In this document: piece by piece, positions 30,190 to 52,596 of the stretch
Layout of the letters: each line of letters starts with the position of its first letter
Numbering within the stretch: position 1 is the first letter of the stretch
Origin: Streptomyces longispororuber
Lineage (GTDB): Bacteria; Actinomycetota; Actinomycetes; Streptomycetales; Streptomycetaceae
NCBI RefSeq assembly: GCF_024448165.1
Contig: NZ_JAMOLN010000002.1
Location: forward strand, 1-64,000
Length of the DNA: 64,000 nucleotides
Direction of reading: 5' to 3'
Translations under genes and position numbers: made by a program
The notes under the pieces: model-generated
The model's database searches: none
The model's input: only the letters and a program-made list of their open reading frames with translations
What the model was told of the DNA's origin: nothing

Positions 30190-31212
30190 ATGGGCGTGCG
30201 CGTGGGCATCAACGGATTCGGCCGGATCGGGCGCGACTACCTGCGCTGCGTGCTGGAACGAGCCGAGTACGGGGACCGGTTCCCGGTCGAGGTGGTGGCC
30301 GTCAACGACATCACCTCGCCCGCGGCGCTGGCCCATTTGCTGGAGTACGACTCCACGTACGGCAGGCTGCGCCGCACCGTGGCCTGTGACGACACCTCCC
30401 TGTTCGTGGACGGGCGGCGTATCGCCGTGACCGCCGAGCGGGATCCGGCCGTCGTGCCCTGGAGCACGACCGGGGTGGATGTGGTCATCGAGTCGACCGG
30501 CCGGTTCCGGACCCGTGAGGAGGCCGGAGCACATCTTGGATCGGGAGTGCGCAAGGTGCTGTTGTCCGTACCCGGCAAGGGAGTTGATGCCACCCTGGTC
30601 ATGGGTGTCAACGAGGACAGGTACGACCCGCAGGCGCACCACGTGATCTCGAACGCCTCGTGCACCACGAACTGCGTCGCACCGATGGTCAAGGTCCTCG
30701 ACGGGCGGTTCGGCATCACCAGGGGTCTGATGACCACGATCCACAGCTACACGAACGACCAGGTGGTCCTGGACGGGCCGCACAAGGACCCGCGCCGCGG
30801 CCGGAGCGCCGCGGTGAACATCATCCCCACGAGCACCGGTGCCGCCCGGGCGGTGGGCGTGGTGCTGCCCGAACTGGCGGGAACGCTGGACGGGTTGGCG
30901 GTGCGTGTGCCGGTGGCGGACGGCTCGCTGACCGATCTGACCGTTGTCCTGGAGCGGCCGGGGAGCGCCGACGAGGTCAACGCCGCGTTCCGTGAGGCGG
31001 CCGACGGGCCCCTGAAGGGGATCCTGCGGGTGTCCGATGCCCCGATCGTCTCGCGGGACGTGGTGGGCGATCCCGCATCGTGCGTCGTGGACGCCCCGCT
31101 CACCCAGGTCAACGGCGATCTGGCCAAGGTGTTCGGCTGGTACGACAACGAGTGGGGGTACGCCAACCGACTCCTCGACCTGACCGAGTGCATCGGCGCC
31201 CGACTGCCGTAG
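30190..31212 (+). CDS. gap: Type I glyceraldehyde-3-phosphate dehydrogenase
   Basis: Glycolytic NAD-dependent dehydrogenase, 340 residues. Rossmann start RVGINGFGRIGRDYLR, catalytic C158 in SNASCTTNC, the histidine region MTTIHSYTNDQ, and the C-terminal WYDNEWGYANRLLDL. Start ATG 30190 after GGGAGGAG. It heads a nine-kilobase run of closely spaced co-directional genes (hydrogenase protease, hypF, hypC, acyl-CoA synthetase, CBS-BON, SHOCT, flavodoxin-like). It is probably a second, hypoxia-linked Gap isozyme rather than the housekeeping one, which usually sits with pgk-tpi (inference). Confidence 0.95.
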   Translation: MGVRVGINGFGRIGRDYLRCVLERAEYGDRFPVEVVAVNDITSPAALAHLLEYDSTYGRLRRTVACDDTSLFVDGRRIAVTAERDPAVVPWSTTGVDVVIESTGRFRTREEAGAHLGSGVRKVLLSVPGKGVDATLVMGVNEDRYDPQAHHVISNASCTTNCVAPMVKVLDGRFGITRGLMTTIHSYTNDQVVLDGPHKDPRRGRSAAVNIIPTSTGAARAVGVVLPELAGTLDGLAVRVPVADGSLTDLTVVLERPGSADEVNAAFREAADGPLKGILRVSDAPIVSRDVVGDPASCVVDAPLTQVNGDLAKVFGWYDNEWGYANRLLDLTECIGARLP

Positions 31213-31253
31213 CGGCCTCGGCAGTGGTCGGGAGCCGAGCGGAGGGAGCGGTC

Positions 31254-31754
31254 ATGGACGGACCGACGCGGATCGCGGTGATCGGGGTGGGCAACGAGTT
31301 CCGGCGCGACGACGCCATCGGCTGTGCCGTGGTGCGACGGCTGCGTGCGCGCGCCGTGCACCGGCCGCTGCCCGCGGGGACCGCCCTCGCCACCTGCGAC
31401 GGGGATCCGGGGCGTCTGATCGGCCTGTGGGAGGGAGCCGAGTTCGCGGTCGTCGTGGACGCCGCACACGCGCACCCGGGCAGCCCCGGCCGGGTGCACC
31501 GCATCGAGCTCGACTCCGAGCGGCTGAACCGGCCGCCCACGACGAGCTCCCACGGGATGGGCCTGGGAGAGGCCGTCGAACTCTCCCGCGTCCTGGGCCG
31601 GTTGCCGGACCGCCTCGTCGTGTACGCGGTGGAGGGCGCCGACAGCTCGCTCGGTACCCAGATGTCCCGTGCGGTGGCGGACACGGTGGAGCCGCTCGCC
31701 ACGGCGGTGGAGGACGAGATCGTCCGGCATCGCGACGCCGCCGCGCGGGGGTGA
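31254..31754 (+). CDS. [NiFe]-hydrogenase maturation protease (HyaD/HycI family)
   Basis: Endopeptidase that removes the C-terminal peptide of the hydrogenase large subunit after nickel insertion; 166 residues. Start ATG 31254 with GGAGGGAG. Diagnostic GVGNEFRRDDAIG (metal-binding Glu/Asp), VVVDAAHAHPGSPGRVHRIE and SSHGMGLGEAVELSRVL, with VYAVEGAD near the end. The expected substrate is the large subunit encoded at 48473-49840, which keeps 25 residues after its final histidine. Stop lies 4 bp before hypF. Confidence 0.9.
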   Translation: MDGPTRIAVIGVGNEFRRDDAIGCAVVRRLRARAVHRPLPAGTALATCDGDPGRLIGLWEGAEFAVVVDAAHAHPGSPGRVHRIELDSERLNRPPTTSSHGMGLGEAVELSRVLGRLPDRLVVYAVEGADSSLGTQMSRAVADTVEPLATAVEDEIVRHRDAAARG

Positions 31755-34092: not shown

Positions 34093-34440
34093 ATGTGCCT
34101 GGGAATTCCCGGACGGATCGTGGACGTGTACGACCACGCCGGACTGCGGATGGCCACCGTCGACTTCGGAGGTGTGCGCCGCGAGGTGTGCCTCGCGTAC
34201 ACGCCTGAGGCCGACGAGGGCGTGTACGTCATCGTGCACGTCGGATTCGCCATCACCACTGTCGACGAGGCGGAGGCGCGCCGCACGCTCGAGGTACTGC
34301 GGGAGATGGGCGGGGCCGTCGAGGGAGAGCTCGGTGAGCCGCTCCCCGCCGGGCCGGGTGGCGAGCGCGACCGGGCCGAACGGCCCCGGAGCGACGCCCG
34401 GGCAGCCCATGGGGGCGCCGATCCCGGCGCCGGACGCTGA
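34093..34440 (+). CDS. hypC: Hydrogenase assembly chaperone HypC
   Basis: Small chaperone that carries the Fe(CN)2CO unit with HypD and docks on the large-subunit precursor. 115 residues: MCLGIPGRIVDV at the start (Cys2 is the essential ligand after Met removal), then FGGVRREVCLAYTPEADEGV and YVIVHVGFAITTVDEAEA. The last 30 residues are a charged tail beyond the usual 75-90-residue family length. Part of the gap-hypF operon. Confidence 0.93.
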   Translation: MCLGIPGRIVDVYDHAGLRMATVDFGGVRREVCLAYTPEADEGVYVIVHVGFAITTVDEAEARRTLEVLREMGGAVEGELGEPLPAGPGGERDRAERPRSDARAAHGGADPGAGR

Positions 34441-34494: not shown

Positions 34495-37188
34495 ATGACG
34501 CACAGGCGAGAGACCGTGGCCGAGGCGCATGCGCTCCTGGCGGACGGGACGACCGCACGGATCCGGGCGGCCGACGCCCGGGACCACGACGCCGTGGTGG
34601 GCTTCTACGAGGCGATGTCCCCGGAGAACCTGCGACTGCGGTTCTTCGGCGTGAGCCGCCGGTCGGCGCGCAGGGCGGCGGACCGCATGTGCGGCCGTGA
34701 CCACCCCGGTCACCTCGGTCTGCTCGCGGAGGTGGAGGGGCAGCTGGTGGGTGTCGCGGAGTACGAGCGGACGCCGGACACGGACCTCGCGGAGATCGCC
34801 CTCGCCGTCGGTGATGCCTGGCACCACCGGGGGGTCGGCACCATTCTCATCGAGCACCTGGTGTCCGCGGCACGCGTCGACGGCATCACCGCGTTCACCG
34901 CGGACGCTCTCGCCGAGAACCACGAGATGCTGAAGGTCTTCGCCGATCTGGGGCTGCGCACGGCCCGTCGGTTCGACGGCCCCGAAGTCCATTGCACGGT
35001 CCAACTCGCCGAGGAGGCAGGGTATGCGGCGGCCGTGGCGGAGCGCGGGCGCGCTGCCGACGTGCTCAGCCTCGTCCCGTTGCTGCGACCGCGGTCTGTG
35101 GCGGTGGTCGGTGCGGGGCGCAAGCCCGGCTCGGTGGGGCGGGCCGTCCTGCGTAATCTGTCCACCGGTGGCTACACCGGCCGTGTGTACGTCGTCCATC
35201 CGCAGGCCGCCGCGATCCTCGGCGTCCACGCGGTGTCGTCCGTGGCCGTACTGCCGACGGTTCCGGATCTGGTGGTGGTGGCCGTGCCCGCGCCCGGGGT
35301 CGCAGCGGTTGCCGCGGAGTGCGGCAAGGCGGGGGTGCGTGCCCTGCTCGTCGTCACCGCCGGGCTGGACGCGGCTCAGGGCGCCGAGCTCCTGGAGACG
35401 TGCCGTGCGCACGGCACGCGCCTCGTCGGTCCCAACAGCCTCGGTCTCGCCAACGCCGAGGACACCGTCCGGATGGATGCCACCTTCGCTGCCGCGCACC
35501 CGAGCCCCGGCACGGCCGGGGTCGCCGTGCAGTCCGGAGGTGTCGGCATCGCGCTGCTCGGCGGCCTGACCCGCCTCGGCATCGGCGTGTCCAGTTTTGT
35601 CTCACTGGGCGACAAGTACGACGTCAGCGGCAACGACCTGTTGCAGTGGTGGGAGAGTGACGGGCGCACCGATCTCGCGCTGTTGCACCTGGAGTCCTTC
35701 GGGAACCCGAGGGCGTTCTCCCGTACCGCGCGCCGCGTCACCCGCCGCATGCCCCTGCTGACCGTCGACGCGGGTCGCACTGAGGCCGGGCGCCGTGCGG
35801 CCGCCTCGCACACCGCGGCCGCCGCCACCCGCACGATGACCCGGCAGGCCCTGTTCACCCAGGCCGGTATCACCGCCACCCGCACCGTTCCCGAACTCCT
35901 GGGCACCGCCGCCCTGTTGCACAGCCAGCCACTTCCTGCCGGACACCGGGTCGCCGTGGTCACCAACGCGGGAGGCGCCGGCGTGCTCGCGGCCGACGCC
36001 TGTGCCGAGGCAGGACTCGCGGTACCGGAGTTGAGGACGGATCTCGTCGGCGAGTTGTTGTCCGTCCTGCCGCCCGGTGCCGTCGCCACCAATCCCGTCG
36101 ACGCCACCGCCGCCGTGTCCGAACAGCAGTTGAGCACCTGCCTCGACAAGCTCATGACCACCGGTGCGGTCGACGCGGTCCTCGTGGCTCTGGTCCCGAC
36201 CGCGGTGTCCGCGGCGACCGGCGACGATCTCGTCCGCGCCCTCACACACGCACCTGGACGGAGTGGCACCCGCACGCTCACCGCGGTCCTCCTCGACCAG
36301 GCGAAACCCGTCCGCCTGCTGCCCGCCGGCACAGGGCGCGTACCGGCGTACGCCGACCCGCAGGCCGCCGCGCGCGCCCTGGCCCACGCGGTGCGCCGCG
36401 CGGCGTGGCTCGCCCGGCCGCCGGGCACGGTACCCGCACTCGCCGATACCGACCCGGTACGCGCACGGAGCGTCGTCGAGCGGTACCTCGCCGAGCACGA
36501 GGACGGAGGCTGGCTCCATCCGCAGGCCTGCGCCGAACTCCTGGACTGCTACCGGATTCCTCAACTGCCCTGGGCCTGGGCGGAGACCGAGGACGAGGCC
36601 GTCCTCGCCGCCGAGCGCCTCAAAGGGCCCGACGACCGGACGGTGCTGAAGGCGTACTGGCCTGGCCTGCTGCACAAGACGCAGGAACACGCCGTCCTGC
36701 TGGACCTGCGCGGAGACGCCCAGGTCCGCGCGGGCTGGCGGGACCTGGAGACCCGGTTCGCCGGGCTCCTGACGGGGGCCGTGGTGCAGCCGTTGGCGCG
36801 GCGCGGCATCGAACTGTTCACGGGGGTCGTCCAGGATGCGGTGTTCGGCCCGCTGGTGCTGTTCGGGCTCGGCGGAACCGCGACCGAGGTCCTCGCGGAC
36901 CACGCCGCCCGCCTCGCCCCGCTCACCGACCACGACGTGCACGACCTGATCACGGCTCCACGCTGCGCCCCGCTGCTGTTCGGGCACGGCGGTGAGGGCC
37001 CCGTCGACCTGGAGGCTCTCGAACAGCTGCTGCTGCGCGTCTCCGCGATGGCGAGCGATCTGCCGCAACTGGCCGAGGCCGACCTCAACCCGGTGCTCGC
37101 GTGGCCCGGGGGCGTCACCGCTCTCGACGTACGGGTGCGCCTCGTGCCCGCGCGAGCGGCGGACCCGTATCTGCGGCGTCTGCGCTGA
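34495..37188 (+). CDS. ADP-forming acyl/acetyl-CoA synthetase fused to an N-terminal GNAT domain
   Basis: 897 residues. An N-terminal GNAT acetyltransferase (about 20-165; LAVGDAWHHRGVGTILIEHL) is followed by the NDP-forming acyl-CoA synthetase core: CoA-binding Rossmann (LRPRSVAVVGAGRKPGSVGR), ligase-CoA domain (GFASHTAA-equivalent AASHTAAAATRTMTRQALF, containing the phosphohistidine region), and a C-terminal ATP-grasp half (VLKAYWPGLLHKTQEHAVLL, then GLGGTATEVLADHAARLAPL). The GNAT is N-terminal, unlike the better-known PatZ order with GNAT last. Either ATP synthesis from acyl-CoA or protein acylation is possible. In this fermentation/hypoxia setting it could give ATP from acetyl-CoA (inference). 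Confidence 0.9.
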   Translation: MTHRRETVAEAHALLADGTTARIRAADARDHDAVVGFYEAMSPENLRLRFFGVSRRSARRAADRMCGRDHPGHLGLLAEVEGQLVGVAEYERTPDTDLAEIALAVGDAWHHRGVGTILIEHLVSAARVDGITAFTADALAENHEMLKVFADLGLRTARRFDGPEVHCTVQLAEEAGYAAAVAERGRAADVLSLVPLLRPRSVAVVGAGRKPGSVGRAVLRNLSTGGYTGRVYVVHPQAAAILGVHAVSSVAVLPTVPDLVVVAVPAPGVAAVAAECGKAGVRALLVVTAGLDAAQGAELLETCRAHGTRLVGPNSLGLANAEDTVRMDATFAAAHPSPGTAGVAVQSGGVGIALLGGLTRLGIGVSSFVSLGDKYDVSGNDLLQWWESDGRTDLALLHLESFGNPRAFSRTARRVTRRMPLLTVDAGRTEAGRRAAASHTAAAATRTMTRQALFTQAGITATRTVPELLGTAALLHSQPLPAGHRVAVVTNAGGAGVLAADACAEAGLAVPELRTDLVGELLSVLPPGAVATNPVDATAAVSEQQLSTCLDKLMTTGAVDAVLVALVPTAVSAATGDDLVRALTHAPGRSGTRTLTAVLLDQAKPVRLLPAGTGRVPAYADPQAAARALAHAVRRAAWLARPPGTVPALADTDPVRARSVVERYLAEHEDGGWLHPQACAELLDCYRIPQLPWAWAETEDEAVLAAERLKGPDDRTVLKAYWPGLLHKTQEHAVLLDLRGDAQVRAGWRDLETRFAGLLTGAVVQPLARRGIELFTGVVQDAVFGPLVLFGLGGTATEVLADHAARLAPLTDHDVHDLITAPRCAPLLFGHGGEGPVDLEALEQLLLRVSAMASDLPQLAEADLNPVLAWPGGVTALDVRVRLVPARAADPYLRRLR

Positions 37189-37216: not shown

Positions 37217-37948
37217 ATGAAGCACAGCAAGGTGGGTTCCGTCATGGTGAGCGAGGTTGTCCGCGCTCAGTACGCCACCCCGTTCAAGGAGATCGCGCGG
37301 CTCCTGAACCGGCACCACATCAGCGGCCTTCCGGTGGTGGACGAGGAGCAGCGAGTGATCGGGGTGATCTCCGAGACGGACCTCATGGCCCGTCAGGCCC
37401 GGGCGGAGGAGGCCTCGTCCACGGCGGAGCACCGGTTCCACCTCCCCGTCGGCCGCGGCTCCCGCACCGAGCTTCGCCGGGCCAGGGCCCGGACGGCGGG
37501 CCAGTTGATGTCCCAGCCGCCCGTCACCGCGCATGCCGACGACTCGATCGCCGAGGCCGCTCGCATCATGGCCCAGCACAAGGTGGAGCGACTGCCGGTG
37601 ATCGACGAGGAGGACCGCCTCGTCGGCATCGTCACCCGCCGGGACCTGCTCCAGGTGTTCCTGCGCCCGGACGACGCGATCCGCCGCGAGGTGGTCGACG
37701 AAGTCCTCGTGCGCACCCTGTGGTTGATGCCGGGAACCCTCGACGTACAGGTCCACGAAGGCGTGGTCACTCTGGGCGGACAGGTCGAACGGCGCAGCGA
37801 GAAGGAGATAGCCGCGCGCATGACCGGCCACATCGACGGAGTTGTCGCCCTGGTCGACCAGCTGACCTACCGGCTCGACGACTCCCACCTCCGGCCGGAC
37901 GACCAGGCGTTGCACGGAGTCGCGGACGACTGGCTGCGCAGGACGTGA
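37217..37948 (+). CDS. CBS-pair protein with C-terminal BON domain
   Basis: 243-residue cytoplasmic protein. Two CBS motifs (VGSVMVSEVVRAQYATPFKE ... LPVVDEEQRVIGVISETDL; TAGQLMSQPPVTAHADDSIA ... LPVIDEEDRLVGIVTRRDLL) probably bind an adenine nucleotide. A BON domain follows (LDVQVHEGVVTLGGQVERRS). ATG 37217 has AGAGGTAGGGG upstream. A paralogue lies in the hydrogenase operon at 49812. This family recurs in DosR-type regulons; the partner protein is unknown. Confidence 0.88.
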   Translation: MKHSKVGSVMVSEVVRAQYATPFKEIARLLNRHHISGLPVVDEEQRVIGVISETDLMARQARAEEASSTAEHRFHLPVGRGSRTELRRARARTAGQLMSQPPVTAHADDSIAEAARIMAQHKVERLPVIDEEDRLVGIVTRRDLLQVFLRPDDAIRREVVDEVLVRTLWLMPGTLDVQVHEGVVTLGGQVERRSEKEIAARMTGHIDGVVALVDQLTYRLDDSHLRPDDQALHGVADDWLRRT

Positions 37949-40302: not shown

Positions 40303-40365
40303 GCTGTCACCTCCACGGTCGGCCACGCACACCAGAGGCGCACTGGGCCGAGTGGGCCTGCGCGG

Positions 40366-40379
40366 GGGACCGCCGGCCC
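40366..40379. promoter_or_regulatory. DevR/OsdR-box-like palindrome between two divergent stress-protein genes
   Basis: GGGACCGCCGGCCC, one mismatch to GGGNCGNNCGNCCC (C for G at position 6). It is 64 bp from one start codon and 69 bp from the other, so it could serve both. Confidence 0.55.
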
Positions 40380-40447
40380 CTGCTGCGCCTGTCCGTCCCG
40401 CACCAGGATGACGGCGACGGACAACGCACAGCCGGAGGTGACGTGCC

Positions 40448-41323
40448 ATGTCACGCCCGCGCATCGTCGTCGGTGTCGACGAGTCCAGCGAGAGCGCGGC
40501 CGCAGCTCGGTGGGCGGCACGCGAAGCACTGTGCAGGGACGCGCCCCTGCACCTCGTGCACGCCTGGGCATGGTCCCCGTGTCCGCCCACCGGCACGCCG
40601 GAGGCGGCCGGACGGCGGGGACGTCCTGCCCGGGCCGTGGCATTCGTGGCCGAGCGTCTGGTGGAGATCCTTCCCGCGGGGTACGCGACCACCGGGACCG
40701 TCGAGGGGCCGGCCACGTCCGCTCTCCTGAAGGCGGCGGAGACGGCAGGCATGCTGGTGCTCGGATCTCGCGGGCTCGGCGCCGTGGCGGGGGTACTCGT
40801 CGGATCCGTCGCGGCCGCCGTGACGGCGAGGGCCTCGTGCCCCGTGGTCCTCGTGAAGGAAGATGCCGGCGGCGCGGGGCACGCAGCGGACTCCCACGAC
40901 GTGGTCCTCGGTCTCGACCTGGGCGACCCCTGCGACGAGGTGATCGACTTCGCCTTCGAGGCCGCTCGGACTCATCGCGCCCGCCTGCACGTGGTGTCCG
41001 CCTGGCCCCGGCCCGGCCCGCTCACCGTCGGCCCCGGCGAGATCGCCCTGACCGACGAGTCACAACAGGCCCGGGAGTGGGACGGCTTCCAGGACGCGGT
41101 GCTGCGCACCTGGCGCGACAAGTATCCCGGCGTCGACGTGTGCCGGACCCTGACACAGGGCCGTCCGCAGACGGCACTGCCGGCCGCCGCGTCAGAAGCG
41201 GGTCTCGTGGTCGTCGGCAGGCGCCGTCGGCACGAGCCGTACATCGGTCCACGCACCGGTCCCGTGGCGCACGCCGCCCTCCACCATGTGCTCTGCCCCG
41301 TGGCCGTCGTGCCGCACGACTGA
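40448..41323 (+). CDS. Tandem-domain universal stress protein
   Basis: 291 residues, two UspA domains. Domain 1: RIVVGVDESSESAAAARWAA and the intact ATP motif GSRGLGAVAGVLVGSVAAAV. Domain 2 ends GRRRRHEPYIGPRTGPVAHAALHH. Start ATG 40448 after GGAGGTGACG. First gene of a unit with pyruvate phosphate dikinase and another stress protein; only 10 bp separate it from the dikinase. Confidence 0.92.
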   Translation: MSRPRIVVGVDESSESAAAARWAAREALCRDAPLHLVHAWAWSPCPPTGTPEAAGRRGRPARAVAFVAERLVEILPAGYATTGTVEGPATSALLKAAETAGMLVLGSRGLGAVAGVLVGSVAAAVTARASCPVVLVKEDAGGAGHAADSHDVVLGLDLGDPCDEVIDFAFEAARTHRARLHVVSAWPRPGPLTVGPGEIALTDESQQAREWDGFQDAVLRTWRDKYPGVDVCRTLTQGRPQTALPAAASEAGLVVVGRRRRHEPYIGPRTGPVAHAALHHVLCPVAVVPHD

Positions 41324-41333
41324 GAGGTCTGCC

Positions 41334-44021
41334 ATGCATACGACGAACCCGACACCGGTGCGCTACGTGTACGCCTTTGCCGACGGCAGCCGGGAGCTGA
41401 CCGCCCTGCTGGGCGGCAAGGGCGCCGGTCTGGCGGAGATGACCCGTCTCGGCCTGCCTGTGCCGCCCGGCTTCACCCTGACCACCGAGGCGTGCCGCCG
41501 GTATCTGGCCACCGGCGCGGAGCCGGTGGAACTCGGCGTGGAGGTGGCCCGTGCCCTCGCGGAGCTGGAGAGGGCCATGGGCCGCACCCTCGGAGGCGGT
41601 GACGACCCGCTGCTGGTGTCCGTGCGTTCCGGCGCCCGCTACTCGATGCCCGGCATGATGGAGACGATCCTGGACGTCGGGCTGAACGACACCACGGTCA
41701 CCGCGCTCGCCCGGACGACGGGGCAGGACCGCTTCGCCTGGGACTCCTACCGGCGGCTGCTGCAGATGTTCGGGCACACCGTCATGGGTGTGGACCGTGC
41801 GCTCTTCGCACCGGCCCTGACCCGGCACCAGCGCGCCCACGGCACAGGCCGCGATGCCGCCGGACTTCCCGAACTGGTCGAGGAACTCAAGGCGATCATC
41901 AGGGGCGAGACCGGCGAGGACTTTCCGCAGGACCCCGCCGAGCAACTGCAGCGCGCCATCCGTGCCGTGTTCACCTCCTGGAACGGTGAGCGCGCCCGCG
42001 TCTACCGCGGCCGCCACCGCATTCCGGACGACCTCGGTACCGCCGTGACCGTCCAGGCCATGGTCTTCGGCAACCTGGGAGAGCACTCCGGTGCCGGCGT
42101 CGCCTTCACCCGTGACCCCGCAACCGGCGCGCCCGGCGCGTACGGCGACTACCTGGCGAACGCCCAGGGGGAGGACGTCGTCGCGGGTGCGCGCGATACC
42201 CGTCCGCTCGAAGCCCTCCGCGAAAGCGTGCCCCGTGCGTTCCGGGAACTCGAAGCGCATCTTCGGACGTTGGAGCGCCACTATCAGGACCTGTGCGACG
42301 TCGAGTTCACCGTTGAGCGTGGCCGGTTGTGGATCCTGCAGACCCGCGTAGGGCAGCGAACCGCCGAAGCCGCGTTCCGCGTCGCCTACGACCTGTGCGA
42401 CGAAAAGGCCCTGACCGAGGACGAGGCGTTGAGCCGTGTGGACGGTGCCGCCCTGACTCGTCTGCTGTTCCCACGGTTTGCGTGCAGCGCCGTCGGCGTG
42501 CCGATCGCCCGCGGCGTGCCCGCCTCGCCGGGCGCGGCCGTCGGAGCTGCGGTCTTCGACTCGGCCGCAGCCGTGCGCCACGCCAGGGCGGGCCGGCGGA
42601 CCGTCCTCGTACGACGGGAGACGAGCCCCGACGACCTGCCCGGCATGATCGCCGCCGAGGCGGTTCTCACCATCCGCGGTGGCAAGACCAGTCACGCCGC
42701 CGTGGTCGCGCGCGGGATGGGCAAGGTGTGCGTCTGCGGTGCCGAGAGTCTCGTCGTCGACCCTGCCGCGCGCACGCTCACGGCGCGCACGGGAGTGGTC
42801 GTCCGTGAGGGGGACACCATCTCGGTGGACGGGACCGCGGGCACCGTGCACCTGGGCGCTCTGCCGACGGCCGACTCCACCGTCCGGCAGTCGCTGATCA
42901 GCGGTGATCGCGCGGATCCGTTGGCGTCCGCGGTGCACCGCGCGCTCGACCACGCCGACGCCGTCTCCCGGTTGGAGGTGCGCGCCAACGCCGACACCCC
43001 GCAGGACGCGGCCCTCGCCCGCAGGCTCGGAGCCCGGGGCATCGGTCTGTGCCGTACCGAGCACATGTTCCTGGGGGCCCGTCGAGAACTCGTCGAGGCG
43101 ATGGTCCTGGCCGCCGACGAGGCCGACCGCCGTAGGGCGCTCGACGCCCTACTGCCGCTGCAATCCCGGGACTTCACCGGGATCCTCCAGGCGATGGACG
43201 GGCTGCCCGTGACCATCCGCCTGCTGGACCCGCCGTTGCACGAGTTCCTGCCCGACCTCACGGCCCTGTCGACCCGCGTCGCGTCGAGCGCGCACCCCAG
43301 CGAACGCGACCGCGAACTCCTCGCCGCTGTCAGCCGGTTGCACGAACGCAACCCCATGCTCGGACTGCGCGGCGTACGCCTCGGGCTGACCGTGCCAGGG
43401 CTGGTCGCGACCCAGGTGCGGGCGATCGGCCAGGCGGTCGCACGGCGGCTGAGCGACGGAGGAACCCCGCGGGCCGAAATCATGATCCCGCTCATCGCGA
43501 CGTACGAGGAGCTGCGGGCCACCAGGGAACTGGCCGAGCGGACGCTCGCCGAGGTGGCTGCCGAGACCGGTCGCCCGCTGCGACTGCCCATCGGCACCAT
43601 GATCGAACTGCCGCGGGCGGCCCTCACCGCGGGCGAGCTCGCCCAGGCCGCCGACTTCTTCTCCTTCGGTACCAACGACCTGACGCAGACGACCTGGGGA
43701 CTGTCCCGCGACGACGCGGAAGCCTCCTTCCTGCCGCAGTACCTCGATCAGGGTCTGATGACGGTGTCCCCGTTCGAGAGCCTCGACGAGGAAGGCGTCG
43801 GCCGCCTCGTGACCCTCGCGGTCCGCGAGGGGCGTGCGGCCCGTTCTCGGTTGCAGACCGGTGTGTGCGGCGAACACGGGGGCGATCCCCGGTCCGTCCA
43901 CTTCTTCCACCGCGCGGGCCTGGACTACGTCTCCTGCTCGCCGTTCCGGATCCCGGCCGCCCGCCTGGAGGCAGGCCGTGCCGCACTCGACAGCCGTGCC
44001 CCGATCCCGGAGAGCAGGTGA
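41334..44021 (+). CDS. ppdK: Pyruvate, phosphate dikinase
   Basis: Interconverts pyruvate + ATP + Pi and PEP + AMP + PPi; 895 residues, normal length. N-terminal ATP-grasp (LLGGKGAGLAEMTRLGLPVP, SVRSGARYSMPGMMETILDV), phosphohistidine domain with H454 in GGKTSHAAVVARGMGK, and the PEP/pyruvate barrel (GLCRTEHMF, FSFGTNDLTQTTWGLSRDD, CGEHGGDP). Between two stress-protein genes in an operon headed by an OsdR-type palindrome. In low-oxygen metabolism it can make glycolysis PPi-linked or support gluconeogenesis; direction cannot be told from sequence. Confidence 0.96.
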   Translation: MHTTNPTPVRYVYAFADGSRELTALLGGKGAGLAEMTRLGLPVPPGFTLTTEACRRYLATGAEPVELGVEVARALAELERAMGRTLGGGDDPLLVSVRSGARYSMPGMMETILDVGLNDTTVTALARTTGQDRFAWDSYRRLLQMFGHTVMGVDRALFAPALTRHQRAHGTGRDAAGLPELVEELKAIIRGETGEDFPQDPAEQLQRAIRAVFTSWNGERARVYRGRHRIPDDLGTAVTVQAMVFGNLGEHSGAGVAFTRDPATGAPGAYGDYLANAQGEDVVAGARDTRPLEALRESVPRAFRELEAHLRTLERHYQDLCDVEFTVERGRLWILQTRVGQRTAEAAFRVAYDLCDEKALTEDEALSRVDGAALTRLLFPRFACSAVGVPIARGVPASPGAAVGAAVFDSAAAVRHARAGRRTVLVRRETSPDDLPGMIAAEAVLTIRGGKTSHAAVVARGMGKVCVCGAESLVVDPAARTLTARTGVVVREGDTISVDGTAGTVHLGALPTADSTVRQSLISGDRADPLASAVHRALDHADAVSRLEVRANADTPQDAALARRLGARGIGLCRTEHMFLGARRELVEAMVLAADEADRRRALDALLPLQSRDFTGILQAMDGLPVTIRLLDPPLHEFLPDLTALSTRVASSAHPSERDRELLAAVSRLHERNPMLGLRGVRLGLTVPGLVATQVRAIGQAVARRLSDGGTPRAEIMIPLIATYEELRATRELAERTLAEVAAETGRPLRLPIGTMIELPRAALTAGELAQAADFFSFGTNDLTQTTWGLSRDDAEASFLPQYLDQGLMTVSPFESLDEEGVGRLVTLAVREGRAARSRLQTGVCGEHGGDPRSVHFFHRAGLDYVSCSPFRIPAARLEAGRAALDSRAPIPESR

Positions 44022-44950: not shown

Positions 44951-45311
44951 GTGGGCCTGCCCTGGAGGAACGGAGCCGCGCCCAGCCGTCGCCGCAGTCG
45001 GGATCGGCCGAGCGATCGGATTGCCGCGGGGCCAGACCGTCCGAGCCGGTCTCACCGCGCCTGGCTGGTCCGTGGCGGTCACGGGAGCTCTCCGGCGGGT
45101 TCTCCCCAGCGTGCCGCGGACCCGTGGAACGGGCCAGGAACGTTGTGGCCCGCATATCTGTCCGCCGGACCGGTCGCGAGGGTGCCGGCAGGGCAGCGGG
45201 CCCGGCAGGCCCAGGAACTGGGGCCGCCCGGCCCATCCCCGCGACGAGGAGCCCGCGTGACGCTGGATGAGGAGTGAGGAACCGCAGGGTGACGAGCAGG
45301 GAGGACGGACC
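44951..45311. other. Long leader/promoter region of the hydrogenase operon
   Basis: About 360 bp with no gene seen. The only clear element is the palindrome at 45221-45234; the start region has AGGGAGGACG before the ATG at 45312. Confidence 0.45.
45221..45234. promoter_or_regulatory. DevR/OsdR-box-like palindrome upstream of the hydrogenase operon
   Basis: GGGCCGCCCGGCCC, one base different from the box before the response-regulator gene, 78 bp before the first hydrogenase gene. Confidence 0.6.
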
Positions 45312-46439
45312 ATGCCGGACACCGGACAGACGGCGTTACTCGACCGGGCGGGGCTCGACGCTCTCGTCGCGGCTCTGACGGCCGACGGGCGCACGGTCGT
45401 CGGACCGACGGTTAGGGACGGCGCCGTCGTGCTCGCGGAACTCGATGGTGCGGACGCCCTGCCCTGGGGATGGGGAACCGAACTCGAGGCGGGACGCTAC
45501 CGGTTGGTGCGTCGCGACGACGGTGCGGCCTTCGCGCACACCTCGGGGCCGCAGTCCTGGAAGTCCTTCCTGCACCCGCAGCGCGAGAAGCTGTGGGACG
45601 TCGACCGCGATGCGGCCGGCGAACTGACCGTGTGTCCGGCCAGGAACGAACCGCCGTCCTACGCCTTCCTCGGGGTGCGCCCCTGCGACCTGCGGGCCAT
45701 TGCGATCCAGGACCGTGTCCTGGCCGGCGGACACTTCAGGGACGACGGCTATGCGGAACGCCGGAGCGGAGCCTTCCTCATTGCCGCCGAGTGCACCGAA
45801 CCGGGGGCGACGTGCTTCTGCGTGTCGATGGGGAGCGGGCCCGCGGCCGAGGCCGGCTTCGATCTCGCCCTCACGGAACTCATCGACACCGGAGGGCATC
45901 GCTTCCTGGTCCGGGCCGGCAGCGCGGAGGGCGCGCGGATCCTGGACCGTGTCCCGTCCGAGAAGGGGGACACGACCACGTCCGACGCCGCCCGCTCCGC
46001 CGTCGACGCGGCCCGCGACCGGATGGGTCGCGCGATGCCCCCGATGGACCTGCGCGCGCTCCTGGGGGCAAGCCCGGAAGCCGAGCGGTGGGACGATGTG
46101 GCCGCCCGCTGCCTGACCTGCGGCAACTGCACCATGGTGTGCCCCACCTGCTTCTGCACCACCACGGAGGAGGTCACCGATCTCACCGGCGACCACGCGG
46201 AGCGATGGCAACGCTGGGACTCCTGCTTCGACCTGGACTTCAGCTATCTGCACGGCGGTCCGGTGCGGGCCTCGGCCCGCAGCCGCTACCGGCAGTGGCT
46301 CACCCACAAACTCTCCACCTGGCACGACCAGTTCGACTCCACGGGATGCGTCGGCTGTGGCCGCTGCATCACGTGGTGCCCCGTCGGCATCGACATCACC
46401 GAAGAGGTCAACGCTCTGGCAGAGGAGGCCCGGTCATGA
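45312..46439 (+). CDS. hyhB: Hydrogenase iron-sulfur beta subunit (group 3b, HyhB type)
   Basis: 375-residue electron-transfer subunit of a soluble NAD(P)-linked hydrogenase, related to sulfhydrogenase beta and anaerobic sulfite reductase A. N-terminal domain with SFLHPQREKLWDV and GVRPCDLRAIAIQDRV; two [4Fe-4S] motifs CLTCGNCTMVCPTCFC and CVGCGRCITWCPVG near the C-terminus. ATG 45312 after GGGAGGAC. Codon 9 is TTA (45336-45338), very rare here, making the operon's first gene a candidate bldA target in Streptomyces. Stop overlaps the next ATG (ATGA). Confidence 0.92.
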   Translation: MPDTGQTALLDRAGLDALVAALTADGRTVVGPTVRDGAVVLAELDGADALPWGWGTELEAGRYRLVRRDDGAAFAHTSGPQSWKSFLHPQREKLWDVDRDAAGELTVCPARNEPPSYAFLGVRPCDLRAIAIQDRVLAGGHFRDDGYAERRSGAFLIAAECTEPGATCFCVSMGSGPAAEAGFDLALTELIDTGGHRFLVRAGSAEGARILDRVPSEKGDTTTSDAARSAVDAARDRMGRAMPPMDLRALLGASPEAERWDDVAARCLTCGNCTMVCPTCFCTTTEEVTDLTGDHAERWQRWDSCFDLDFSYLHGGPVRASARSRYRQWLTHKLSTWHDQFDSTGCVGCGRCITWCPVGIDITEEVNALAEEARS

Positions 46440-46900
46440 TCGCGACGAGCACGCCCCGCATGGGACAGGCACTGCCCGCCGTCCACCGCGAGCGCCTGAT
46501 GCCCCTGGCCCGGCATGTGAACTTCTCGTCGGGTACCCGCCTGTTCGAGGAGGGCGGGCATGCCGATCGGTTCTGGATCGTCCGCACCGGGACCGTCGCC
46601 CTCGACATGCACGTGCCCGGCCGCCGGCCGGTCGTCATCGAGAACCTCGGCTTCGGTGAACTCGTCGGCTGGTCCTGGATGTTCGCACCGTATGTGTGGC
46701 AACTCGGCGCCGAGGCGGCCACCCCTGTGCGGGCCCTCGAGTTCGACGCGGCGACGGTGAGGCAACTGTGCGAGACCGACGCGGTCCTGGGGCAGGAGGT
46801 CGGTCTCTGGGTCGGCAAGGTCCTCGCCCACCGGCTGCTGGCTGCCCGCATGCGGCTTCTCGACCTGTACGCGCCGCACGGCAGCGGGCTGCCGCGATGA
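46436..46900 (+). CDS. Cyclic-nucleotide-binding-fold protein within the hydrogenase operon
   Basis: 154 residues consisting only of a cNMP-binding (Crp-type) beta-barrel: FSSGTRLFEEGGHADRFWIV, TGTVALDMHVPG, VIENLGFGELVGWSWMFAPY, with a C-terminal helix. There is no helix-turn-helix, so it is not a Crp regulator. Overlaps its neighbours on both sides by 4 bp (ATGA), so it is translated with the hydrogenase subunits. It may be an accessory or regulatory subunit; the phosphate-binding cassette (GELVGWSW) departs from the cAMP consensus and the ligand is unknown. Confidence 0.85.
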   Translation: MIATSTPRMGQALPAVHRERLMPLARHVNFSSGTRLFEEGGHADRFWIVRTGTVALDMHVPGRRPVVIENLGFGELVGWSWMFAPYVWQLGAEAATPVRALEFDAATVRQLCETDAVLGQEVGLWVGKVLAHRLLAARMRLLDLYAPHGSGLPR

Positions 46901-47703
46901 GTACCGTCCCCGTTCCGTACCGGGTGATCGACCGCTGGGACGAGACGAGGGACACGATCACCCTGCGGCTCGACCCGGTGGGAGAACCGCTGGCTCCCTT
47001 CGCGCCCGGCCGGTTCGCGATGGTGTACGCCTTCGGGGTCGGGGAGATCCCGGTGTCGGTGAGCTCGATCCCGACCGACGGCGGCGTGGCCCACACGATC
47101 CGTGCGGTCGGTGCCGTCTCGGAAGCCCTGTGCCGTAAGAGGGTCGGCGACGCGGTGGGTCTGCGCGGCCCTTTCGGTACCGGCTGGCAGCTGGAGACGG
47201 CACGGGGGCAGGACCTGGTGGTCGTCGCGGGAGGGATCGGCCTGGCCCCGCTGCGGCCGCTGATCCGGCGCGTGGTGGCCGATCCGCGGGCGTACGGCAG
47301 GGTCAACGTCCTGGTCGGCGCACGCACCCCGGCCGACCTCGTCTCCCGTGTGGAGATCCGGCGGTGGGCCACCGCCTACACAGGGGTGACCGTCGACCAT
47401 CCCGGCGCGTACTGGCGGGGCGAGATCGGTCTCGTCACGCGTCTGCTGGACGGGGCGCAGTTCGATCCGGGACAGGCAACGGCGTTCGTGTGCGGTCCCG
47501 AGCCGATGATCCGCGCCACCGCCCGCGATCTGGTCCACCGGGGTGTGGCCGCGGACCGTGTCCGCGTCTCCCTGGAGCGGAACATGCGCTGTGCCACCGG
47601 ACATTGCGGTCACTGTCAGCTCGGCCCCGTGCTGTTGTGCCGGGACGGGCCGGTGATCGGGTTCGACCGGGCCGAGCCGTTGATGAGGACGAGGGAGTTG
47701 TGA
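46897..47703 (+). CDS. hyhG: Hydrogenase FAD/NAD(P)-binding gamma subunit (HyhG type)
   Basis: 268-residue ferredoxin-reductase-like subunit that passes electrons between NAD(P)H and the iron-sulfur subunits. FAD-binding barrel with [20 protein letters not shown], nucleotide-binding [20 protein letters not shown] and [16 protein letters not shown], and a C-terminal [2Fe-2S] site with cysteines in [22 protein letters not shown] 46897 overlaps the preceding stop; the stop overlaps the GTG of the small subunit. Confidence 0.92.
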
Positions 47704-48476
47704 ACGAGATGGCCGCTGTTCCGACGCTCGCCGTGTTCAAGCTGGCCTCCTGCGACGGCTGTCAGCTCACCCTGCTCGACTGCGAGGACGAACTCCTCGC
47801 GCTCGCCGGGAGGGTACGGATCGCGCACTTCCTGGAAGCGTCGAGCGCGGTCCAGCCGGGACCGTACGACCTGTCCCTGGTCGAGGGCTCGATCACCACA
47901 CCGGCCGACGCGGAACGGATCCGCGCCATCCGGTCCGCGTCGAGGCGCCTGGTCACCATCGGCGCCTGTGCCACCGCGGGCGGCATCCAGGCGCTGCGCA
48001 ACTTCGCCGACGTCGAGGAGTTCCGGCGCACCGTCTACGCCCGGCCCGACTACATCGACACCCTCGCCACCTCCACGCCCGTCTCCGCCCACGTCGATGT
48101 CGACTTCGAACTGCGCGGCTGCCCCATCGACCGCCGCCAACTCCTCGAAGTCGTCACCGCGTTCCTCGCGGACCGCAGGCCCGACGTCCCCGACCACAGC
48201 GTCTGCTTCGAGTGCAAACGGCGTGGCACGGTCTGCGTCACCGTCGCCCACGGCACCCCCTGTCTGGGCCCGGTCACGCACGCGGGCTGCGGGGCGCTCT
48301 GCCCCGCGTACGGGCGGGGCTGCTACGGCTGCTTCGGCCCGTCCGGCTCGGTGAACCTGCCCGCGCTGATCCCGGTGCTGCAGCGGGACGGTCTCGACGA
48401 CCGGGACACCGAGCGTCTGTTGAGCACCTTCAACGTCGCCGCTTTCGCTGCCCACGACAGGGAGCCCCGCCCGTGA
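47700..48476 (+). CDS. hyhS: [NiFe]-hydrogenase small subunit (group 3b, HyhS type)
   Basis: 258 residues, NADH-dehydrogenase 20-kDa-subunit family. Cysteine ligands for three [4Fe-4S] clusters: [60 protein letters not shown] and [12 protein letters not shown]. No Tat signal peptide, so the enzyme is cytoplasmic, as expected of group 3. Start GTG 47700 (GTGA overlap) or ATG 47709. The stop overlaps the large-subunit GTG. Confidence 0.93.
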
Positions 48477-49840
48477 CACACCGCGGCACCCGCGTCCTGC
48501 ACGTCGGCTCACTCGCCCGCGTGGAGGGCGAGGGCGCGCTGCACCTGACGGTCGACGGCGACGACGTCACCGCCGCCCGGCTGCAGATCTACGAGCCGCC
48601 GCGCTTCTTCGAGGCGTTCCTGCGCGGCCGCGCCCATACCGAGCCGCCCGACATCACCGCACGGGTCTGCGGCATCTGCCCCGTCGCCTACCAGTTGAGC
48701 GCGTGCGCGGCGATCGAGGACGCGTGCGGGGTCCTCGTCCCCGACGGGGTAGGGGAGTTGCGCAGGCTGCTGTACTGCGGTGAGTGGATCGAGAGCCAGA
48801 CCCTGCACATCTACCTGCTGCACGCCCCGGACTTCCTGGGCCGCGACGGTGCCATCGATCTGGCCCGCACCCACCGCGCCGACGTGGAGCGCGGCCTGCG
48901 GCTGAAGCAGGCGGGCAACGCCATCCTCGATCTGCTCGGCGGGCGCGCCGTCCACCCGGTCAACGTCCGCGTCGGTGGCTTCCACCGTGCGCCCGCCAGG
49001 GCCGAACTGCAGCCGCTGGCCGAGCGGTTGCGCCGGGCGCTCGACGACGCGTGGGCGACGGTGTGCTGGGTGTCGGGCTTCGACTTCCCCGACGCCGACT
49101 GCGACCACGACTTCCTCGCCCTGTCCGAAGCGGGCCGGTACGCCATCGAGACCGGCACGCCCACGGTGCTGCGCCAGGGAGGCGACACGGTGCGGCGGTT
49201 CGCACTCGCCGACTTCCCCCGCGAGGTCGTCGAGGTGCAGGTCGCGCACTCCACCGCCCTGCACGCCACACTGGGCGGCCGCCGTCACCTGACCGGATCC
49301 CTGGCCCGGTACGCGATCAACCACCGTCTCCTGTCACCGCTCGCCCAGCAGGCCGCACAGGAGGCAGGACTGGATGCCGTGTGCCGCAATCCTTTCCGCA
49401 GCATCCTCGTGCGGTCGGTGGAGACCGTGTACGCCGTGGACGAGGCGCTGCGGATCATCGACAGGTACGAACCGCCCGAGCGCGCCCACGTCGACGTGCC
49501 GCCGCGCGCGGGCGTCGGGCACGGAGCGACGGAGGCGCCGCGCGGACTGCTCTACCACCGCTACGCGCTGGCCGCCGACGGCACCGTCACCGACGCGCGG
49601 CTCGTCCCGCCCACCGCGCAGAACCAGGGCGCCATCGAGGAGGACCTGCGCCGTCTGGCCGGAACGGCCCTCGCCGGGGGGTCGCCCAGCGATGAGGAGT
49701 TGACGCGTCTGTGCGAGCGCGGGATCCGCAACCACGACCCGTGCATCTCCTGCTCCACCCACTTCCTCGACCTCACCGTCGACCACGTCGCACCGCCCGG
49801 AGGAGGCAGCCGTGAGCGAGAGCCCGCACATCGTCAGTGA
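48473..49840 (+). CDS. hyhL: [NiFe]-hydrogenase large subunit (group 3b, HyhL type)
   Basis: Catalytic subunit, 455 residues, binding the NiFe centre by two CxxC pairs: C66/C69 in [10 protein letters not shown] (L1) and C424/C427 in DPCISCSTH (L2). The L1 form CGICPVAY and the subunit set point to group 3b (NADP-linked, O2-tolerant, bidirectional). After H430, the expected cleavage site of the maturation protease, 25 residues remain. GTG 48473 overlaps the small-subunit stop. The end overlaps the next gene by 29 bp. In mycobacteria a homologous enzyme is DosR-controlled; the palindrome upstream suggests the same here. Confidence 0.94.
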
Positions 49841-50450
49841 CGTGATGACCCAGACCGTCGTCGCCGTCGGCCGCGACGCACCGTTCAAGGAGATCGTCGA
49901 GGTGATGGACCAGTGGCGGGTGAGTGCGCTGCCCGTACAGGAAGGCGAGGGACGCGTCGTCGGGGTGGTGTCCGAGGCCGATCTGCTGCCCAAGGAGGAG
50001 TTCCGCGACCTGGATCCGGACCGGCGCGAGCAGTTGCGCCGTCTGTCCGATCTGGCCAAGGCCGGCGCGGTGTGCGCGGGCGAGCTGATGACGAGTCCTG
50101 CCGTGTGCGTACACGCGGACGCCACCCTGGCCGAGGCCGCCAGGATCATGGCCACGCGCAGGGTCAAACGGCTCCCCGTCGTCGATGCCGAGGGCCTTCT
50201 CGAAGGCATCGTCAGCCGCTCCGACCTGCTCAAGGTCTTCCTGCGGTCCGACGACGACATCGCCGAGGAGGTGCGCCGCACCGTGGCGTCCTATCTGTTC
50301 CCCGGCCAGAACGTGACGGTGACGGTCGCCGAGGGGGTGGTCACCTTCGGCGGCACTTTGAGCAATCGCAATCTGGTGCCCGTGGCAGCGCGTCTCGCAC
50401 GGGCCGTGGAGGGCGTCGTCGACATCCGCATGGACTTCGCGGCGCCATGA
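49812..50450 (+). CDS. CBS-pair protein with BON domain in the hydrogenase operon
   Basis: 212 residues, paralogue of the protein at 37217: CBS 1 ([20 protein letters not shown] ... [11 protein letters not shown]), CBS 2 ([20 protein letters not shown] ... [15 protein letters not shown]), then BON ([20 protein letters not shown]). GTG 49812 lies inside the end of hyhL with AGGAGG just before it (49799-49806). Stop overlaps the hypD ATG. One such protein rides in each hydrogenase-linked operon. Confidence 0.9.
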
Positions 50451-51568
50451 AGTACTTGACGGAGTACCGGGATCCGGTGCTGGCCCGACGCCTGCTCGCC
50501 GAGCTGACCGCGACGGCCACCAGGTCCTGGCGGATCATGGAGGTCTGCGGCGGACAGACCCACACCCTTGTCCGCCAGGGCATCGACGAACTGCTGCCCG
50601 CCGGGATCCGCATGATCCATGGCCCAGGCTGTCCCGTCTGCGTCACCCCGCTGGAAACCCTTGATCGGGCCATGGCCATCGCGGCCCGCCCCCGCACGGT
50701 CCTCGCCAGTTTCGGCGACATGCTCCGCGTCCCCGGCTCCACGACGGACCTGCTGTCGCTGCGGGCCAGGGGCGCCGACGTGCGCGTCGTCTACACCCCG
50801 ATGGACGCGGTCCGGCTGGCGGCCGAACTCCCGGACAGGGACGTGGTGTTCCTTGCCGTGGGGTTCGAGACAACGGCTCCCGCCAACGCGATGGCGGTGC
50901 TGCACGCGGAGCGGCTGGGGCTGACGAACTTCTTCGTCCTGGTCAGTCATGTCCTGGTGCCGCCCGCCATGACCGCTCTGCTCGACGATCCCGACTGTGA
51001 GGTCCAGGCGTTCCTCGCGGCCGGGCACGTGTGCACGGTGATGGGCTGGCGCCAGTACGAACCGATCGCCGCCCGCTACCGAGTGCCGATCGTGGTGACC
51101 GGGTTCGAACCGCTCGACCTCCTCGAAGGTGTCCTGATGGCGGTACGCCAACTGGAGTCCGGGCGCCACAGCGTCGAGAACCAGTACGCGCGAGCGGTGC
51201 GGCGAAGCGGGAACACGGAGGCGCAGGACGCGATCTCCCGCGTCTTCCGCGTCGCCGACCGGGCCTGGCGCGGCATCGGCACGCTTCCCGCCAGCGGCCT
51301 CGAACTCGCCGAACCGTACGCCCGGTTCGACGCGGCCGGCCGTTTCGACGTCACCGGCCTGCACCCGGCGGAGGACCCGGAGTGCATCGCGGGCGCCGTC
51401 CTCACCGGTGCCGCCCTGCCGACCGACTGCACCGCGTACGGCACCCGGTGTACGCCCCGCACCCCGCTCGGTGCTCCGATGGTCTCGACGGAGGGCACCT
51501 GTGCCGCGTTCCACTCCGCAGGCCGCACCCGAAGCGAGACACCTTCGCCCACCAGGAGGACTCCATGA
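50447..51568 (+). CDS. hypD: Hydrogenase formation protein HypD
   Basis: Iron-sulfur scaffold that, with HypC, assembles Fe(CN)2CO. 373 residues. Conserved [71 protein letters not shown] and C-terminal [23 protein letters not shown] overlaps on both sides couple it to the CBS protein and hypE. Confidence 0.95.
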
Positions 51569-52596
51569 CATCGGCCTGCCCCACGCCCCATCACGCACAG
51601 GACACGCTCCTCCTCGGTCACGGCGCGGGCGGCCTGCTCACCGCCGAACTCCTGCGTGACGTCGTCCTGCCCGCACTCGGTGCTCCGGCGGACGGCGCCC
51701 TGGAGGATGCGGCGCTGCTTCCTGGTGACAGCGAACTGGCGGTCTCCACCGACGCGTTCGTGGTCGACCCGCTGTTCTTCCCCGGGGGCGACATCGGATC
51801 GCTCGCCGTGCACGGCACCGTCAACGACCTGGCCATGCGCGGCGCCTTGCCCGTGGCCCTCGCCCTCGCGGTGATAGCCGAGGAGGGTCTCCCGATCACC
51901 GACCTGCGCTGTGTGCTGCAGTCCGCGGGCAAGGCCGCCCGTGACATCGGCGTGCCCGTCGTCACCGGCGACAGCAAGGTGGTGGGCCGCGGCGCCGCCG
52001 ATCGACTCTTCCTCGTCACCACCGGTATCGGCCGCCGCGTTCCCGGCCTCACTCCGTCCGCCGTCCGGGCCGCGCCAGGCGACGCGATCATCCTCTCCGG
52101 ACCCGTCGGTCTGCACGGCACCACCATCCTCTCGGCCCGCGAAGGCCTCGGCTTCGAGGCCGACATCGCCTCCGACACCCAGCCGCTGCACCGGCTCGTC
52201 ACCGCGCTCGCCCCCTTGGGCGGGCAGGTGCACGCACTGCGCGACCCCACGCGAGGAGGGCTCGCGGCGGCACTCAACGAGATCGCCCGTGAAGCACACG
52301 TCGGCGTCGAGATCGACGAGGCCGTACTGCCCGTGCCGGCGGCCGTCGCCGCGGCGTGCGACCTGCTCGGCCTCGACCCGCTCGTCGTGGCCAACGAGGG
52401 CTGCCTCATTGCCTTCGTCGCCCCGCAGGCCACGGACACCGCGCTGGACGCCCTGCGCGCCCTGCCGGAGGGGCACGCGGCTGTCCGGATCGGCACGGCA
52501 GGGAAGGCGCCGGAGGGCGTGGTGGCGCGCACTCTGGTCGGCTCGCGACGCATCGTCGACATGCCGCTGGGCGAGCAGCTGCCTCGTATCTGCTGA
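51565..52596 (+). CDS. hypE: Carbamoyl-dehydratase HypE
   Basis: Dehydrates the S-carbamoyl group to thiocyanate for CN ligand delivery. 343 residues, PurM-like fold: [76 protein letters not shown], and the essential C-terminal cysteine in the terminal PRIC. Last gene of the hydrogenase operon. HypA and HypB (nickel insertion) are absent from the window and must be elsewhere or replaced. Confidence 0.95.

Follow-up and report, generated by a model that had tools for sequence, protein, structure and literature searches.

Our results indicate that a 64,000-nucleotide stretch of DNA from Streptomyces longispororuber (contig NZ_JAMOLN010000002.1, positions 1 to 64,000; hereafter the window) encodes a cytoplasmic [NiFe]-hydrogenase of group 3b, HyhBGSL, together with a DevR/DevS-type regulator pair and OsdR-type binding sites. 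The favoured explanation, to which we give a probability of roughly 0.65, is that the hydrogenase belongs to an OsdR-type low-oxygen regulon and evolves H2 to dispose of reductant. The genome is a 10.5 Mb draft of 442 contigs, the window lying on contig 112.

The hydrogenase operon (45312-52596, + strand) contains, in order and with short overlaps, the genes for HyhB, a protein with a cyclic nucleotide monophosphate (cNMP) binding domain, HyhG, HyhS, HyhL, a CBS-BON protein, HypD and HypE (Table 1). Gene calls, Pfam and NCBIfam agree with the original prediction that the HyhBGSL-type genes are real and co-directional; the span that it gave holds these genes, but the protease, hypF and hypC fall outside it, upstream at 31224-34440. 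The 13 cysteines of HyhS and the 16 of HyhB fit, in our reading, the expected [4Fe-4S] ligand patterns and the C-terminal end of HyhG is a Cys-rich [2Fe-2S] motif (Pfam DHODB_Fe-S_bind), in keeping with the claim of complete cluster ligands. Also as claimed, the N-terminus of HyhS has no twin-arginine signal, which points to a cytoplasmic enzyme.

The assignment of HyhL to group 3b is supported by the PDB and NCBIfam rankings, by a tree and by the company of HyhB, HyhG and HyhS, which complete a four-subunit HydBGDA-type set in one operon. The PDB ranking is led by 9nez, 9e15, 9e1j and 5yxy (E 1e-60 to 4e-59), followed by 5odc (1.5e-44), 5xf9 (1.5e-35) and 9sfi (4e-32), the group labels of these entries being assumed. 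Among NCBIfam models the order is ShyA (242 bits), HydA (216 bits) and frhA (133 bits), all under their cut-offs, the first two models being archaeal. A quick tree of 125 rows separates all HyhL sequences and the 3b references of Pyrococcus furiosus and Thermococcus kodakarensis from the 3c and 3d references, with a Shimodaira-Hasegawa-like approximate likelihood ratio test (SH-aLRT) support of 99; two points weigh against this result, namely a reference set restricted to 3b, 3c and 3d, without 3a and groups 1, 2 and 4, and program warnings that the references have long branches and an unusual composition. The predicted group is thus upheld, and no placement outside it was seen in these comparisons.

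All four cysteine ligands of nickel and iron are present in HyhL, in RVCGIC (L1) and DPCISCSTH (L2). The earlier description of both motifs as complete was slightly overstated, since the last residue of L1 (CxxCxxxH), which is His in P. furiosus soluble hydrogenase I (SHI), T. kodakarensis and Mvh, is Tyr in the window. This Tyr occurs in 120 of the 120 distinct HyhL rows (125 before de-duplication, of which 80 came from a scan with two patterns, one containing the L1 Tyr, and 45 were unselected: the window, four plasmid loci and 40 genome loci), and we regard it as a clade variant that does not exclude the protein from group 3b. The tail of HyhL after DPCISCSTH is longer than in most relatives, and its coding sequence overlaps the beginning of the CBS-BON gene; 80 of the 120 rows have nine residues past the H.

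The closest NCBIfam models are named sulfhydrogenase subunits, and an enzyme that reduces polysulfide in vivo might be envisaged. Genes for a TauE/SafE exporter, a rhodanese and a metallo-beta-lactamase-rhodanese protein, likely a persulfide or sulfite handling set on Pfam evidence, are indeed found at 59004-63962 (- strand). However, they lie at least 6.4 kb off, on the opposite strand and past an unrelated two-component system, and the archaeal models carry the name sulfhydrogenase for historical reasons. This function is very improbable.

The DevR/OsdR-like system of the original prediction is encoded about 15 kb upstream of the hyh operon, with DevR (3c3w) and the DevS GAF domain (2y8h) as best PDB matches. 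The alignment of the kinase to 2y8h covers a GHPPM stretch, which we take to contain the haem His of DevS. The match of the response regulator to DevR spans the whole protein, and the recognition-helix stretch LAEKTVKN is identical.

Binding sites were scored with two versions, original and softer, of a matrix built from 25 published Streptomyces coelicolor sites (PMC5069765, in excerpt). Three sites in the window score at least 15 bits, a number that none of 100 second-order Markov simulations attained (mean 0.15); they precede osdR, gap and a gene that fuses a GNAT domain to a nucleoside diphosphate (NDP)-forming acyl-CoA synthetase (ACD). The hyhB site matches the arm pattern exactly and scores weakly because its two central bases are unusual.

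Conservation of this site was assessed in 350 bp upstream of hyhB plus 30 bp, in 115 distinct loci out of 120. A box of at least 12 bits was found in 31 of 66 Streptomyces-type regions, compared with a mean of 0.8 and a maximum of 8 for 40 permuted matrices. In the window's clade (55 HyhL rows, SH-aLRT 98; 54 hyhB regions) such boxes precede hyhB in 27/54 regions vs 1/54 for the reversed control and 6.1% of random segments of the same loci (n=2160), which themselves contain true OsdR targets. In 23 of the 27 the box is centred at -60 to -110, the same place as the weak site of the window.

Several results count against OsdR control of the operon, in addition to the presence of true targets in the random segments. 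The hyhB box of the window reaches just 9.9 bits and 13 window sites score at least 9.5; the number of window sites at 13 bits, three, is ordinary (0-3 in eight simulations, mean 1.5). Genome-wide the arm pattern occurs 186 times vs 134 for its reversed control, so a single copy alone says little. Half of the clade (27/54) has no box of at least 12 bits, and where OsdR (at least 50% identity) is encoded nearby, in 14 clade loci, six have the hyhB box and eight have none. In 13 loci the protease gene precedes hyhB, and a box stands before either gene in one of them. Outside the clade, boxes of at least 12 bits were found in 4/12 regions of other Streptomyces, none of the 12 at -60 to -110, and in 6/49 of other taxa.

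The operon might therefore be no OsdR target in the window strain, merely lying among stress genes and answering to another signal (e.g. the cNMP-domain protein, CBS-BON or the phosphate/energy state), as its own weak box and the box-less relatives would suggest. Against this, the hyhB box is placed where the strong boxes of relatives sit, and the gap-protease-hypF-hypC operon, source of the maturation factors, has an 18.7-bit box; we consider this explanation unlikely. Taken together, the box patterns suggest that OsdR probably controlled the operon in the ancestor of that part of the clade to which the window belongs; for the window strain such control is plausible, though unproved. The predicted placement of the hydrogenase under OsdR gains support from the boxes of the window and from those before hyhB in about half of the clade, and is weakened by the score of its own site and by the half of the clade that has none.

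Under the favoured explanation, falling oxygen would lead the DevS-like kinase to phosphorylate OsdR, and OsdR~P would bind the 16-bp palindrome that lies some 84 bp upstream of hyhB, as well as the boxes before osdR, the gap-protease-hypF-hypC operon and the GNAT-ACD gene. HypF, HypE, HypC and HypD would make the Fe(CN)2CO group, nickel would be inserted and the protease would trim the HyhL tail. Electrons would then pass from NAD(P)H, the probable cofactor, through HyhG, HyhB and HyhS to the NiFe site, where H2 would be produced, an outlet for reductant that respiration cannot accept. By analogy with Mycobacterium smegmatis, H2 evolution as a redox valve would be the most likely function.

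The enzyme might instead mainly take up H2, making NAD(P)H, or exchange in both directions, and so act as an electron source at low oxygen. Enzymes of group 3b are reversible, those of group 3 having been called bidirectional (PMC12319191, in excerpt), and a second hydrogenase occurs in 60 of 96 hyhL genomes, which would fit consumption of H2 somewhere. However, the 3b enzyme of M. smegmatis oxidises NAD(P)H and forms H2 (PMC13332983, in excerpt), and in the window genome no second hydrogenase that could recycle H2 was detected. Such a role is in our view improbable, and H2 evolution is preferred.

HypC, HypD, HypE, HypF and the protease are all encoded in the window, the protease, HypF and HypC genes forming one upstream run with gap. 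In the window genome there is no match to PF01155 (HypA), and the best match to TIGR00073 (HypB) scores 76 bits, under the cut-off of 121.2; this protein is UreG (TIGR00101, 273.6 bits), encoded within a urease cluster. HypA and HypB are described as required for nickel insertion (PMC3287977, in excerpt). Because neither was detected, an active enzyme would need another nickel route, which could be UreG/UreE, another G3E GTPase or unassisted insertion.

Two sets of genomes link HypA to the presence of a second hydrogenase. Among 48 hyhL genomes of the window's genus, HypA was found in 31, HypB above cut-off in 32 and a second PF00374 hydrogenase in 29; HypA is present in 29/29 with the second hydrogenase vs 2/19 without (G106, G148), and G097 has a partial HypB and no HypA. 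A second set of 49 further genomes was drawn from 80 loci, with five duplicates and a further 26 loci omitted, such as metagenome bins, short contigs and additional mycobacteria. Here HypA was found in 34 and a second hydrogenase in 32, HypA being present in 32/32 with it vs 2/17 without (Mycobacterium shimoidei, L109, and M. peregrinum, L133). Over the pooled 96 genomes (that of L094 shares coordinates with G084 and is counted once; further overlap between the sets is possible), HypA accompanies a second [NiFe]-hydrogenase in 60/60 cases and occurs in 4/36 genomes without one (Fisher p 2e-21). A kinship-aware comparison gave the same direction in 11 of 13 independent pairs, the opposite in none and no difference in two (p 0.001). 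The boundary that separates HyhL from a second hydrogenase, drawn on best PF00374 E values (at most 4.3e-19 vs 9.7e-14 to 1e-9 in set one, at least 1.5e-15 in set two), was set after the values had been inspected, and a low-scoring second enzyme would escape it. HypB was searched in all 48 genomes of set one and, in set two, in the 17 without a second hydrogenase, two of which exceed the cut-off, the same M. shimoidei and M. peregrinum; G213 (125-residue match) was omitted from the HypA, HypB and second-hydrogenase searches.

Both HypA and HypB are lacking in 31 of the 36 genomes with the 3b enzyme as the only detected [NiFe]-hydrogenase, a count in which draft genomes may miss genes. Such a proportion might mean that these genomes carry a non-functional or nickel-starved enzyme, encoded by a decaying cluster or active only with excess nickel. 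However, of the HypA-less loci examined, 22 of 27 have hypD and hypE next to hyh, vs 16 of 58 where the genome has a second hydrogenase, a pattern suggestive of continued use, and in the window HyhB, HyhG, HyhS, HyhL, HypF, HypC, HypD and HypE are all open frames with intact motifs. Decay or starvation is thus decidedly unlikely, and the absence of HypA and HypB does not establish that the enzyme is active.

A natural nickel-insertion route of actinobacterial group 3b enzymes that needs neither HypA nor HypB is suggested by these distributions, tentatively and at somewhat less than even odds. In the genomes that lack both proteins, hypC, hypD, hypE and hypF usually still adjoin the enzyme genes, and HypA goes with the second hydrogenase. 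UreG is a possible nickel-loading substitute in the window genome and could stand in for HypB in most genomes without HypA and HypB, the sub-cut-off matches to the HypB model having been identified as UreG in the window genome only. As a general HypB replacement it was rejected: neither G277 nor G288 matches TIGR00073, and the matches of G247 and G102 reach 24 and 27 bits. Because these four of the 31 genomes have no HypB-model match of UreG strength, loading may be unassisted or depend on an unknown factor. On this reading the hydrogenase of the oxygen regulon could travel as a module with its own FeCN2CO factory, borrowing nickel handling from the host. In the open-licence literature searched, no report on missing HypA/HypB in actinobacterial 3b enzymes was found.

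Between hypC and hyhB lie genes for the GNAT-ACD fusion, a CBS-BON protein, a flavodoxin-domain protein, STAS proteins, universal stress proteins and pyruvate, phosphate dikinase (PPDK). PPDK and the synthetase had been read, with gap, as a fermentative survival module, of which PPDK and the type I glyceraldehyde-3-phosphate dehydrogenase are confirmed, but the supposed ADP-forming acyl-CoA synthetase looks PatA-type. The GNAT part of the fusion matches 4nxy/4u5y, which we take to be S. lividans PatA, and the protein may well be a PatA-type protein acetyltransferase; as a sign of ADP-forming fermentation it was set aside, neither reading being proved. The ACD part keeps an SHT motif that aligns to SHTGA of 4-hydroxybutyrate-CoA ligase, with Ala in place of Gly. 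The OsdR-type box upstream of this gene suggests possible low-oxygen control of protein acetylation.

The likeness of the fusion to a PatA-type protein acetyltransferase weakens the case for fermentation. In S. coelicolor, OsdR targets PPDK (SCO0208; PMC5069765, in excerpt), and since the main text of that paper does not contain the word 'hydrogenase', PPDK is no specific pointer to H2 fermentation. Further downstream, 55063-57561 encodes in a row a ferric-reductase-like membrane flavoprotein, an FMN-binding protein and ApbE, possibly an extracytoplasmic flavin electron route.

Table 1. Features of the window, with the matches on which they were identified
Feature	Position	Strand	Evidence
OsdK/DevS-like GAF-GAF sensor histidine kinase	27360..29006	-	Pfam GAF, HisKA_3, HATPase_c; PDB DevS GAF 2y8h E 3.7e-52
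OsdR-type box AGGGCCGACCGGCCCT, upstream of osdR	29295..29310		20.5 bits; softer matrix 19.6
OsdR/DevR-like LuxR-type response regulator	29377..30069	+	PDB DevR 3c3w E 9.8e-74
OsdR-type box GGGGCCGAACGTCCCT, ~100 bp before gap	30082..30097		18.7 bits; softer matrix 17.8
Type I glyceraldehyde-3-phosphate dehydrogenase (gap)	30190..31212	+	TIGR01534, 418 bits, above cut-off
Hydrogenase maturation protease, HycI family	31224..31754	+	PF01750; TIGR00072 above cut-off
HypF	31759..34083	+	Pfam acylphosphatase, zf-HYPF, YrdC, HypF_C
HypC, starts MCLGIPGR	34093..34440	+	PF01455; TIGR00074 above cut-off; 34093 is a corrected start
OsdR-type box CGGGCCGAACGGCCCC, ~115 bp before GNAT-ACD gene	34372..34387		16.6 bits; softer matrix 15.9
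GNAT-ACD fusion, PatA-type domain order	34495..37188	+	Pfam; PDB 4nxy/4u5y residues 9-164, 8wzu residues 195-882
CBS-BON protein	37217..37948	+	Pfam
Weak OsdR-type box, ~75 bp before universal stress protein gene at 40448	40365..40380		10.1 bits; softer matrix 9.9
Universal stress protein	40448..41323	+	Pfam Usp on 40637-41323; full frame
PPDK	41358..44021	+	TIGR01828, 1178 bits, above cut-off
Weak OsdR-type box GGGGCCGCCCGGCCCA, centre -84 from hyhB	45220..45235		9.9 bits; exact arm-pattern match
HyhB, 4Fe-4S dicluster subunit	45312..46439	+	Pfam Fer4_22; NCBIfam sulfhydrogenase beta, under cut-off
Single-domain cNMP-binding-fold protein, 154 residues	46436..46900	+	PF00027
HyhG, FAD/NAD(P)H and 2Fe-2S subunit	46897..47703	+	Pfam, NCBIfam; corrected start probably 46897
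HyhS, small subunit	47700..48476	+	PF01058; NCBIfam best HydD/ShyD, under cut-off
HyhL, [NiFe] large subunit, C-terminal extension past DPCISCSTH	48473..49840	+	PF00374; NCBIfam best ShyA/HydA; PDB 9nez E 1.2e-60
CBS-BON protein, overlapping hyhL 3' end	49812..50450	+	Pfam CBS and BON
HypD	50447..51568	+	TIGR00075, 470 bits, above cut-off
HypE, C-terminus PRIC	51565..52596	+	TIGR02124, 385 bits, above cut-off; 51565 is a corrected start

The surroundings of hyhL were compared in fetched loci, mostly of about 20 kb with varying lengths (54 of the clade, 23 mycobacterial and 42 other). OsdR (at least 50% identity) lies in the fetched stretch in 14/54, 6/23 and 2/42 of them, respectively; a cNMP gene stands between hyhB and hyhG in 50/54, 0/23 and 21/42, and CBS-BON directly follows hyhL in 29/54, 0/23 and 0/42. 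Two Streptomyces genomes, G212 (L028, L063) and G101, have two hyhL copies each, L063 being outside the window's clade. In Streptomyces sp. NBC_01450 (L007:17000-18351) hyhB aligns from residue 92 only, with no adjoining cNMP gene, and may be truncated or have a misread start.

Among 242 Streptomyces genomes, 193 have matches to the cNMP protein (between one and seven per genome in the rows listed), and hyhL was found in 49 of 246 (one of the 49 a partial match); the family is thus not one of dedicated hydrogenase subunits, and the gene is, judged by this distribution, one copy of a wider family that joined the operon. As a small cNMP-domain gene inside a hydrogenase operon it recalls HoxI of the Cupriavidus necator soluble hydrogenase (SH), and the 3b-associated cNMP gene has been called HoxI (PMC12319191, in excerpt). 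This name was rejected, given the breadth of the family and a marginal likeness to the C. necator protein (BLASTP E 0.012, 28% identity over 88 columns; 25% in an alignment). In the fetched loci several copies of the family adjoin genes for CBS-BON and OsdR, and the cluster itself encodes two CBS-BON proteins (37217-37948 and 49812-50450). S. coelicolor SCO0168, Crp-like and with OsdR sites (PMC5069765, in excerpt), may belong to the same family as the 46436-46900 protein.

A close parallel is that of M. smegmatis. A study of 2014 reportedly described fermentative H2 production by this organism. In line with the original prediction, its Hyh has been named part of the dos regulon (PMC8125079, in excerpt), and it is important in hypoxia (PMC8125079, PMC13332983, both in excerpt). 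The four subunits and the group are the same, mycobacterial relatives of HyhL being 59-65% identical. Unlike the window, mycobacterial loci have neither the cNMP gene nor CBS-BON at these positions, 1/23 has hypDE nearby, and HypA is present in the mycobacteria examined, even in the two whose only detected hydrogenase is 3b. P. furiosus soluble hydrogenase I (9nez) and the T. kodakarensis cytosolic hydrogenase (5yxy) are the best solved relatives of HyhL, with the same subunit types (NCBIfam), but differ in the His of L1 and in having no OsdR context; to our knowledge, they have no cNMP or CBS-BON genes either. The OsdR regulon of S. coelicolor resembles the window in regulator type, box and the neighbouring universal stress protein and PPDK genes (PMC5069765, in excerpt), to which the window adds a hydrogenase and its maturation genes.

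Searches of the open-licence literature for group 3b hydrogenase and DosR in Streptomyces found nothing, and the sole match for Streptomyces, hydrogenase and OsdR, in excerpt, concerns protein production in S. lividans. A 3b hydrogenase regulated by low oxygen is a pattern known from mycobacteria; the present findings would extend it to Streptomyces, a genus generally regarded as strictly aerobic, and an OsdR footprint before hyhB is readily testable. Should the enzyme prove active, the loss of both HypA and HypB in many genomes that retain HypCDEF would question the need for both in nickel insertion, and strains without them may offer a setting for studying how nickel is loaded in their absence.

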